A stretch of 13,636 nucleotides of DNA, taken from positions 1 to 13,636 of the forward strand of contig CALFEM010000609.1 in the NCBI GenBank assembly GCA_937950105.1, in the 5' to 3' direction. The notes under the pieces were generated by a model. The model searched no databases and had not been told where the DNA came from. It saw only the letters and a list, made by a program, of their open reading frames with translations. The DNA is from an uncultured Alphaproteobacteria bacterium. Lineage in GTDB: Bacteria > Pseudomonadota > Alphaproteobacteria > Rhizobiales > Hyphomicrobiaceae. The position numbers were made by a program, and so were the translations under genes. Positions 7,081 to 13,636 of this stretch are shown piece by piece (the stretch's first letter is position 1; every line of letters begins with the position of its first letter).

Positions 7081-8520
<1,440 letters not shown>

Positions 8521-8558: not shown

Positions 8559-9023
8559 CTAGCGGCGCGACTTCCATGCCTGTGACGCCGCCTCTGATGC
8601 GGCCTGCTGCCAGACCGCCTTGCCATGCCTCGCATACGCCGCCCAGTCGTCATTGGAGCGATACCAGCCGAGCCCGACACTGTCGAACTCGTCGGCGGGC
8701 AGTGAACGGGTCACGCCGATCAGCGCCAGCGCTGCGTTGATGGCGCCGCTGCCGCTCCTGCTGGGCGCCGCCACGTCGGACGGCGTCCAGACGCGGGCGT
8801 GCTGTGTGCCGGAGCCGCCGAAGTAGTCCGTCGCGATCAACGCGATCGCGAAACTGCGACCGAGTCGTTCTCCGGCCTCTTCGAGGAGCCTCATCTCGTC
8901 ATCGGCATCAGGGGCGACAGCCAGTGCATAGCCCTGGGCGAGGGGCGCGACCACGCACGGGGTCGCGATTGCAGCGGAAAGCTGCTCGCCCTTTGCGACC
9001 AATGCTCGTATCGCGTGCCCCAC
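8559..9023 (-). CDS. Unrecognised 154-aa protein between gltB and gltD
   Basis: The product has 154 residues from a GTG at 9023, with GGGGG about 8 bases upstream, 13 bases after the gltB stop. It ends in TAG at 8559, 38 bases before gltD, so it is almost certainly cotranscribed with both. It has no signal peptide and no membrane helix. Visible features are an Ala-rich N-terminal helix, [22 protein letters not shown] (58-79, a likely beta strand then a Gly-rich turn), and the aromatic stretch [19 protein letters not shown] (116-134). It does not match any family I know, and no catalytic motif is evident. Its codon use resembles that of its neighbours, and no other frame through the region is better. 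Position suggests a role tied to glutamate synthase or nitrogen assimilation, but that is inference from location only. Confidence 0.72.
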
Positions 9024-9036
9024 CGCTGCCCCCGCA

Positions 9037-11082
<2,046 letters not shown>

Positions 11083-11085
11083 CTA
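11083..11085 (-). other. In-frame amber codon in gltB (second)
   Basis: TAG sits in PIPLD-[TAG][11 protein letters not shown], directly before the [10 protein letters not shown] start of the FMN domain. From memory of family sequences this position is commonly Glu, so a single GAG-to-TAG change is the simplest origin. Confidence 0.85.
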
Positions 11086-11853
11086 GTCGAGCGGGATCGG
11101 CTTGCGCCCGGCTTCATCCGCGCCCTTGATGCGGAACAGGCCGCGAATGGTCATCAACTGCTCGGCCTGATCGTTCACCTGCCTGGCGAAGGCGCGATAC
11201 TTGTCGGGCAGGTTGCCGCGCACCGCGTGCTGCAGGTCGGCGACCGTCGAGGGGCGCCACATGTGCGATTCGCCACGGATGCGGTAGGCGTACTCGCCGC
11301 CGACGTCGAGCGCGTTGGCGAGCACCGGCGCGTTGGAGAAAGCGAGGCTGTGGCGTTCGAACGTCTCGCGCGCGATTTCCCTGAGGCCGATGCCCTCGAT
11401 CTGCGTGTGCGTGCCGGTGAAGTACTTGGCGACGAAGCTCGACTTCAGGCCCACCGCGTCGAAGATCTGCGCGCCGCAGTACGACTGGTAGGTCGAGATG
11501 CCCATCTTCGCCATCACCTTGAGGATGGCCTTGCCGACCGCCTTGATGAAGCGCTTCTTGACTTCGCCGCTGTCGAGGTTCTCGCCGAGCTCCGGCAGCA
11601 TCGCTTCCAGCGTCTCGAAGGCGAGATACGGGTTGATGGCTTCCGCGCCATAGCCCGCGAGCGTGCAGAACTGGTGCACCTCGTGCGCTTCGCCGGTCTC
11701 GACGACGAGACCGACCGACGTGCGCAGGCCCTGCTTGATCAGGTGGTGGTGCACGGCGGACGTCGCGAGCAGCGACGGGATCGGCACACGGTCCGGCCCG
11801 GTCGCGCGATCGGACAAAATGATGATGTTGTAGTCGCCCGAGCGCACGGCATC
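11083..11853 (-). CDS. gltB: gltB segment 2: central domain between the two ambers
   Basis: This is 256 sense codons between the two TAG codons. It reads as the Glu-synthase central domain: NIIILSDR near its start, SVGLVVETGEAHEVHQFC, GYGAEAINPYLAFETL and STYQSYCGAQIFDAVGL. It ends in IPLD just before the second amber. The only early start codon is a GTG at 11847 with no ribosome binding site, so independent translation is unlikely. Confidence 0.8.
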   Translation of the reverse strand, partial: DAVRSGDYNIIILSDRATGPDRVPIPSLLATSAVHHHLIKQGLRTSVGLVVETGEAHEVHQFCTLAGYGAEAINPYLAFETLEAMLPELGENLDSGEVKKRFIKAVGKAILKVMAKMGISTYQSYCGAQIFDAVGLKSSFVAKYFTGTHTQIEGIGLREIARETFERHSLAFSNAPVLANALDVGGEYAYRIRGESHMWRPSTVADLQHAVRGNLPDKYRAFARQVNDQAEQLMTIRGLFRIKGADEAGRKPIPLD

Positions 11854-11856
11854 CTA
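11854..11856 (-). other. In-frame amber codon in gltB (first)
   Basis: TAG sits in VVCAEA-[TAG]-DAVRSGDYNIIILSDR, inside the central domain. Both flanks match GltB. One base change from GAG or CAG would explain it. It also creates a CCTAGG palindrome, with CTAG generally rare in bacterial genomes. Confidence 0.85.
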
Positions 11857-13636
11857 GGCCTCGGCGCAGACGACGTCGATGGCCGTCACCATGCCGGAGG
11901 GGCCATTGGCGACGTCGTAGGTGATGTCGAGCGTGATCGACGAAAAGTTGTTGTCGGCGACTTCGCCAATCTGGCGAATGCGCTCCAGATCCTCGTTGGT
12001 CAGGATCGGCTGATACACCTCGAGCCGCTTCTCGCGCGAGGTGCCCTCGAGGTCGAGGATGTTCGGACGCGGGCCGATGAACGACACGAGGCTCATGACG
12101 AGTTCCTCGCGGATCGAGTCGATCGGCGGGTTCGTGACCTGCGCGAAGTTCTGCTTGAAGTAGGTGTGCAGCAGCTTCGGCTTCGACGACAGCGCCGAGA
12201 TCGGCGTGTCGGTGCCCATCGAGCCGATCGCTTCCTGACCGGTCGTCGCCATCGGCGTCATCAGGAACTTGACGCTCTCCTGCGTGTAGCCGAACGCCTG
12301 CTGCAGATCGAGCAGCGAGATATTGGAGGTGCGCGCAGGTGCCCGCCGCTTCGGCAGCGGCAGGTCGGATACCATGATCTGCGTGCTCTTCAGCCAGCTT
12401 TCATACGGGTTGCGCGCGCTGATCTCGGCCTTCAGTTCCTCGTCGGAGACGATGCAGCCCTTCTCGAGGTCGATCAGAAGCATCTTGCCCGGCTGCAGAC
12501 GCCACTTCTTGACGATGTTCTCCTCCTTCACCGGCAGCACACCGGATTCCGAGGACATGATGACGATGTCGTCCTTGGTGACGAGGTAGCGTGCGGGACG
12601 CAGCCCGTTGCGGTCGAGCGTCGCACCGATCTGGCGGCCGTCGGTGAACGCCATCGCCGCCGGGCCGTCCCACGGCTCCATCAGAGCCGCGTGATACTCG
12701 TAGAAGGCGCGCCGCTTGCCATCCATGGTCGGGTTGCCGGCCCACGCCTCGGGGATAAGCATCATCGCCGCGTGCGTCAGCGAGTAGCCGCCCATGACGA
12801 GGAACTCGAGCGCGTTGTCGAAGCACGCGGTATCGGACTGGCCCTCGTACGAGATCGGCCACAGCTTGGAGATCTGCTCGCCGAACAGCGGGCTCGACAC
12901 GGAGGCCTGCCGCGCCGCCATCCAGTTGACGTTGCCGCGCAGCGTGTTGATCTCGCCGTTGTGGGCGACCATGCGATACGGGTGCGCGAGCTTCCACGAC
13001 GGGAAGGTGTTGGTCGAGAAGCGCTGGTGCACGAGCGCGAGCGCGGACGTGAAGCGCGGGTCGGAGAGGTCCTTGTAATAGGCCTTCACCTGGTAGGACA
13101 TGAACATGCCCTTGTAGACCAGCGTGCGCGTCGACAGGCTGACGCAGTAGTGGCCGATGTCGGTGCCCTTCGAAGCCGCCTGCACCGAGTTCGAGACGAT
13201 CTTGCGCACGAGGTAGAGCTTGCGCTCGAAGGCGTCCTGATCGCCCTTGAAGCCGGAGCGGCCGATGAACACCTGGCGGTGCACCGGCTCGGTCGCGATC
13301 ACCATCTTCGACAGGCACGAGTTGTCGACCGGCACCGAGCGCCAGCCGATCAGGTTCAGCCCCTGCTCGCGGATGACGCGCATCCACACGCTCTCGCAGT
13401 AGGCGCGCAGGCGCTCGTCCTGCGGCATGAACACGTGACCGACGGCGTAGTTGCCTGGCTCCGGCAGGGAGAAGCCCTTCACCTGGCAGTCCTGCGCCAG
13501 GAACGTGTGCGGGATCTGCACCATGATGCCGGCGCCGTCGCCCGCGATCGGGTCGGCGCCCACCGCGCCGCGATGCTCGAGGTTTTCGAGAATGTGCAGC
13601 GCGTCGCCGACGATCTTGTGTGACTTGCGCCCCTTC
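11854..13636 (-). CDS. gltB: gltB segment 1: class II glutamine amidotransferase domain (N-terminus outside window)
   Basis: This is 593 codons from the window edge to the first amber. It begins KGRKSHKIVGDALHILENLE, then HRGAVGADPIAGDGAGI. This is the usual continuation about 30 residues after the catalytic Cys, which lies outside the window. Glutaminase landmarks are HNGEINTLRGN (HNGEIN at 12963-12946), SDTACFDNALEFLV and WDGPAAMAFTDGRQIG, then LDRNGLRPARY. The start of the central domain follows. Translation stopping at the amber would give a glutaminase half without the synthase site. Confidence 0.88.
   Translation of the reverse strand, partial: KGRKSHKIVGDALHILENLEHRGAVGADPIAGDGAGIMVQIPHTFLAQDCQVKGFSLPEPGNYAVGHVFMPQDERLRAYCESVWMRVIREQGLNLIGWRSVPVDNSCLSKMVIATEPVHRQVFIGRSGFKGDQDAFERKLYLVRKIVSNSVQAASKGTDIGHYCVSLSTRTLVYKGMFMSYQVKAYYKDLSDPRFTSALALVHQRFSTNTFPSWKLAHPYRMVAHNGEINTLRGNVNWMAARQASVSSPLFGEQISKLWPISYEGQSDTACFDNALEFLVMGGYSLTHAAMMLIPEAWAGNPTMDGKRRAFYEYHAALMEPWDGPAAMAFTDGRQIGATLDRNGLRPARYLVTKDDIVIMSSESGVLPVKEENIVKKWRLQPGKMLLIDLEKGCIVSDEELKAEISARNPYESWLKSTQIMVSDLPLPKRRAPARTSNISLLDLQQAFGYTQESVKFLMTPMATTGQEAIGSMGTDTPISALSSKPKLLHTYFKQNFAQVTNPPIDSIREELVMSLVSFIGPRPNILDLEGTSREKRLEVYQPILTNEDLERIRQIGEVADNNFSSITLDITYDVANGPSGMVTAIDVVCAEA

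Follow-up and report, generated by a model that had tools for sequence, protein, structure and literature searches.

The gltB gene on the contig under study, which encodes the large subunit of glutamate synthase, is interrupted by two in-frame TAG codons and reads as a conserved, undamaged gene on both sides of each. We give about an even chance to the reading that both TAGs are isolated G-to-T errors of the consensus, which the living gene would either lack or not carry in fixed form, and that this gltB would be ordinary and functional. The region analysed, hereafter the window, is one whole contig of 13,636 bp, and its closest kin belong to the Hyphomicrobiaceae, the source name attached to the protein P0003 of the nearest genome.

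The two amber codons and their setting

The gltB gene lies on the minus strand at 9037-13635, with a TGA stop at 9037 and its 5′ end beyond the contig edge; judging from the offsets of the open frames of relatives, some 44-140 codons are missing ahead of the first codon present. Reading of the ORFs gave three open pieces on this strand (11857-13635, 11086-11853 and 9037-11082), and translation with TAG as X gave 1,532 residues with X at positions 594 and 851. With X at both stops, the Pfam families GATase_2 (residues 1-414), Glu_syn_central (444-731), Glu_synthase (792-1164) and GXGXG (1245-1431) were found in the domain order of a GltB, while the single uninterrupted frame of a GltB is broken at codons 594 and 851. 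Five distinct sequences of solved glutamate synthases aligned across most of the gene.

The first-pass annotation had described two in-frame amber codons in an otherwise intact gltB, and both were found at its coordinates on the minus strand, in the same frame as gltB, with no further stop and no frameshift inside the 1,532 codons. The TAG at codon 594 (11854-11856) falls in Glu_syn_central, in a column where 153 of 177 relatives have glutamate (T 16, D 3, Q 2, H 1, K 1, R 1). The TAG at codon 851 (11083-11085) falls in the first part of Glu_synthase, where glutamate occurs in 148 of the 177 (D 15, Q 7, S 3, A 3, N 1). Because the first lies in the central domain and the second in the early synthase domain, either TAG acting as an ordinary stop should abolish GltB activity, as far as can be judged from the domain layout. 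Both codons are GAG or GAA among the aligned close relatives, and the nearest genomes having each site, G076 and G079, have GAG at both, in agreement with the earlier view that each TAG is one change from GAG. The common C-TAG-G context that had also been pointed out is present but unremarkable, C-GAG-G being the commonest GAG context of the gene (22 of the 67 remaining GAG codons, beside which 27 GAA codons remain), and it was rejected as a motif on that ground. CTAG occurs five times in the window where the trinucleotide frequencies predict 8.4, and this rarity was likewise dropped as being of no use as evidence.

Comparison with relatives showed that gltB is 91% identical in protein over the length present, and 88% in DNA, to the gene of G076 (P0003, an ORF of 1,581 aa), 93% identical across residues 1-1083 to the partial gene of G079, and 87% identical to that of G077. 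An order-wide DNA search, in which 216 of 397 genomes were scored, also returned G076 (88%) as the closest relative. In a protein search with residues 560-900 for another gltB copy from this species, whether open or interrupted alike (7,997 scored, best 120 considered), the top full-length match was 88% identical; the protein searches took in proteins of 0.55-1.75 times the query length, a scope that leaves partial GltB proteins of other lengths outside. The top match of that search, P0002, was set aside for an internal repeat of the gene; it is a GltB-like protein in which a stretch of the central region is repeated, perhaps through mis-assembly. The two gltB pieces of G079 (L097 and L098) overlap and differ in identity to the window (93% and 86%), which suggests a mixed genome bin.

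The rest of the window is open as well. The gltD gene, encoding the small subunit, occupies 7081-8520 on the minus strand as an open frame of 498 aa, intact as had been noted, and the neighbouring ORFs with matches to the Pfam families RibD_C, cytochrome b561, glycosyltransferase, PTPS and CBS are all open. At 3-1904, an ORF of 634 aa open at the contig edge appears hydrophobic by eye and has no Pfam match.

Decay, selection and the cost of losing gltB

The first-pass annotation had argued that random decay would have damaged more than two codons. This was tested by aligning the window against 177 relatives, namely the 80 best-scoring loci and 97 proteins of 1,500-1,659 residues (the 97 of 119 proteins, P0003-P0121, that passed this length filter), a column being taken as near-invariant when at most two other sequences differ. 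The window differed at none of 508 such columns, a score of zero that is shared by 76 of the 178 sequences, the window included. When P0024, which has 47 odd residues and was kept in the 508-column set, was left out, 514 columns were near-invariant and the count was again zero. Beside two nonsense changes, 16.5 missense changes would be expected at these columns under a uniform spectrum and 7.4 under G:C-to-T:A changes only. Two nonsense changes without any missense change there would arise with a probability of 1.2% under a uniform or a transition-biased spectrum, 4.5% under G:C-to-T:A, 3.6% under coding-strand G-to-T only and 5.8% under C-to-A only. The argument thus holds, and the excess of missense changes and the frameshifts that would mark a decaying pseudogene are lacking, although the ratio of private nonsynonymous to synonymous changes is raised, as described below. 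The absence of change at the 514 positions suggests that selection acted on the entire GltB until very recently. It leaves either two unlikely, very recent events, or bases that are not real, or codons that are harmless. The same figures also weigh on the reading as consensus error, for two nonsense calls free of missense are a rare outcome of random error as well (4.5% under G:C-to-T:A).

The first of these choices, a real and very recent loss, is a serious possibility that we rate somewhat below an even chance. GltB would have been lost by one G-to-T change, with the second following soon after; the first TAG would end the protein before the FMN/synthase domain, leaving the cell without glutamate synthase and dependent on its neighbours for glutamate or other amino donors. 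Both codons are indeed a single change away in G076 and G079. Read as a neutral clock, zero changes allow at most about 0.27% divergence per site after the loss, and at that divergence the chance of two or more nonsense changes is about 5%, which counts against a real loss.

The private changes of gltB speak on this point from both sides. Nonsynonymous to synonymous counts were 23:18 in the window and 10:31 in its sister L083 (Fisher P 0.006), the highest ratio in the window being that of the middle piece (9:3), a pattern that may reflect relaxed selection and runs against an intact gene carrying two erroneous bases. Pairwise dN/dS was 0.13 between the window and L083 (0.10, 0.17 and 0.14 for the three pieces) and 0.02 between L083 and L097. 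Three-way arithmetic gave much the same branch dN for the window and the sister (0.030 and 0.028; 0.044 and 0.046 in the middle piece), whereas the branch dS of the window was the lower (0.19 against 0.25), with branch dN/dS of about 0.15 and 0.11, respectively. We read this pattern as no clear decay, yet no other evidence speaks as strongly for a real loss.

Stops inside gltB appear to be rare among relatives. None of 201 related near-full-length genes, from 103 family and 150 order genomes, had an internal stop, which argues against a true loss and favours error. The 201 genes are the 76 family and 130 order genes matched over at least 1,400 residues, five genomes being common to both sets; the total was counted by reading tables whose ends are unlisted, and genes broken by frameshift escape it, appearing as shorter matches. 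Stops flagged in G043, G147 and G129 each proved to be the gene's own end, and all 80 of the best-scoring loci kept are open in a single frame for 1,400 residues or more. In G009 (C32) and G078 (C212), two adjoining gltB pieces lie on one contig in different frames, an apparent frameshift. These breaks could be either natural losses, which would make a real loss in the window more plausible, or errors of the records; real or not, they show that base-level breaks of gltB occur in deposited records.

Loss of gltB should also be costly. In each of the 76 family genomes gltB matched once across 1,400 residues or more, and G061 and G018 had a further close copy that was partial. The large glutamate dehydrogenase (GDH) was found in all four nearest relatives; the small GDH was present in G077 and absent above cut-off from G076, G078 and G079, some of which may be incomplete genomes. 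We therefore consider gltB apparently single-copy and probably needed in the near relatives, and its loss costly where no small GDH scores above cut-off. Escherichia coli lacking GDH and glutamate synthase (GOGAT) is described as a glutamate auxotroph (PMC9436414), and such a strain is reported to grow when amino donors are supplied or when a partner strain is present (PMC9436414; PMC6415869), which lends some plausibility to a natural loss. A true double nonsense would probably give an auxotroph, a way of life possible in a community, and this expected auxotrophy adds to the case for error.

Origin of the two bases

GAG stands at both codons in G076 and G079; if the ancestor of the window had it too, each change is a coding-strand G-to-T. 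The share of such changes among the possible nonsense changes of gltB is 23% with a uniform spectrum, 16% when a 4:1 transition bias is assumed and 49% when the process is G:C-to-T:A, so that both nonsense changes would be G-to-T in 5.5%, 2.7% and 24% of cases, respectively. On these figures, the class of change makes oxidative damage, miscalls or a repair-defective population about 4- to 9-fold more likely. Against a general process of this kind, the private changes of gltB held no excess of G:C-to-T:A (5 of 41 in the window and 7 of 41 in the sister).

A stem search revealed a perfect 7-bp inverted repeat at 11076-11092 whose 3-nt loop is exactly the TAG of codon 851. This stem is the longest, with loops of 3-8 nt, among the 69 GAG-type sites of gltB, and 0.44% of gltB positions lie inside the loop of a stem of at least 7 bp. 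Inverted repeats and GGC have been cited as triggers of Illumina miscalls (PMC4787001; PMC3622629), the Illumina origin of the contig being our assumption; one study found no universal miscall motif, according to the portion of PMC4787001 drawn on here. On the other side, the same 7-bp arms flank a GAG in the relative L088, a hairpin loop could equally raise true mutation, no hairpin was found at site 594, and the GGC just upstream of that site is shared by 42% of GAG sites.

Further evidence came from gltD, which matches P0242, from another record (a contig of 6,890 bp), at 497 of 498 residues, so that the species is probably present in a second assembly, to judge by this match. The single difference lies at codon 179 (8041-8043), where P0242 has Lys and the window and all 119 homologues have Gln. 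The Lys is one C-to-A change from the window codon and could belong to the same G:C-to-T:A class as the stops of gltB, which would suit error; here the window itself has the common state and agrees with P0242 at every other residue, which tells against it. At 8266-8268, the window and P0242 share a Thr where all 119 other homologues have Ser, and this Thr is the only difference of the window at 241 near-invariant gltD columns.

According to the reading as consensus error, the two bases would stem from library damage or miscalling, in one case at the loop of the 7-bp hairpin, and would have survived into the consensus, for instance where depth was low. Our preference for error comes from the class of both changes (G-to-T), the absence of other damage, the hairpin at codon 851 and a gltB that is apparently single-copy and probably needed in near relatives. 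The ranking of error above mutation rests on likelihoods of a few fold.

Recoding, restart and known systems

Amber suppression or recoding, the third option raised by the first-pass annotation beside nonsense mutation and consensus error, would have UAG read as an amino acid in this lineage only, most simply through a tRNA-Glu(CTC) whose anticodon had turned to CTA and which would insert glutamate. Both stops are TAG and both stand in glutamate columns of a gene whose remainder is under apparent selection, and G076, the nearest genome, has separate tRNA-Glu genes with CTC and TTC anticodons, so that a change in one might be borne. The results, which come mostly from relatives, point the other way. 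Release factor 1 (TIGR00019) scored above the curated cut-off in five of six close relatives, the exception being G079, whose gltB is spread over two contigs and whose genome may be incomplete. The scan for a tRNA with a CUA anticodon, which the annotation had suggested, was run in G076, and none of its 46 tRNA genes, all of them read, has the anticodon CTA; no tRNA gene was found in the 13.6-kb window. Among 30 ORFs of G076, 21 end in TGA, five in TAA and four in TAG; these ORFs came from 31 stretches and were chosen for a length of 200 aa or more and by a filter on codon composition.

In the window, gltB alone holds internal TAG codons, none being found in the other ORFs with Pfam matches, to which extent the earlier statement on this point stands, and the 67 GAG and 27 GAA codons left in gltB also argue against suppression. 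A 154-aa ORF at 8559-9023, between gltB and gltD, does end in TAG as had been noted; as an argument against recoding it is weak, for the ORF lacks a Pfam match and a 117-aa ORF at the corresponding place of G076 (L095) showed no significant similarity (E 0.16). G076 gives a clearer view of TAG as a terminator, although it is a relative. The bacterial reassignments described in the portion of PMC8629427 drawn on here, a screen of over 250,000 genomes, concern UGA and arginine codons, and the 290 bacterial stop codons that it infers to be sense codons are treated as candidates only, with pseudogenes and contamination named as sources of error. Taken together, recoding found no support and we regard it as very improbable, while consensus error and recent nonsense both stand. 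The fuller proposal, a GC-rich alphaproteobacterium with natural UAG-to-Glu suppression by a mutated tRNA-Glu(CUA) that would tolerate amber codons in a central metabolic gene, has a fainter chance still.

A split enzyme, with three pieces translated separately by restart after each TAG and then assembled, seems hardly credible. Every piece is open and conserved, and a GTG lies three codons past the first TAG. The first cut, however, falls inside the central domain (444-731), the next in-frame ATG beyond the second TAG is 16 codons away, no gene among the 201 relatives is cut by a stop, and the middle piece, searched as a separate protein, had no relative above 84% identity except itself among the best 120 of 3,011.

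By title and the opening of the abstract, the first 8 to 15 entries on each topic gave nothing on such a case, the topics being gltB nonsense mutations, UAG reassignment, Hyphomicrobium and glutamate metabolism, screens for codon reassignment, oxidative artefacts, Illumina context errors and errors in metagenome-assembled genomes. Read literally, the contig would point to auxotrophy for glutamate or to a new genetic code. The lack of further damage over 1,532 codons is telling on its own and indicates an error of single bases or a change so recent that it has left no trace, and neither auxotrophy nor recoding should be read from one metagenome contig.

Compared with known systems, the gene departs from bacterial stop reassignment (UGA to Trp or Gly), with which it shares an in-frame stop in a conserved gene, in that the codon is UAG, both cases lie in one gene, and near relatives have release factor 1 and lack a suppressor tRNA. 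Like a young pseudogene, it has premature stops one change from the sense codon of a relative, but unlike one it is undamaged at 514 near-invariant positions. Its likeness to short-read miscalls or oxidative damage, drawn from the consensus alone, lies in two G-to-T changes with one in a hairpin loop, although gltB shows no general excess of that class. The closest resemblance in layout is to the GltB of the Hyphomicrobiaceae, the large subunit of NADPH-GOGAT: apart from two in-frame TAGs and a 5′ end beyond the contig, the gene has the same four domains in the same order, 91% identity to that of G076 (P0003), and gltD nearby.
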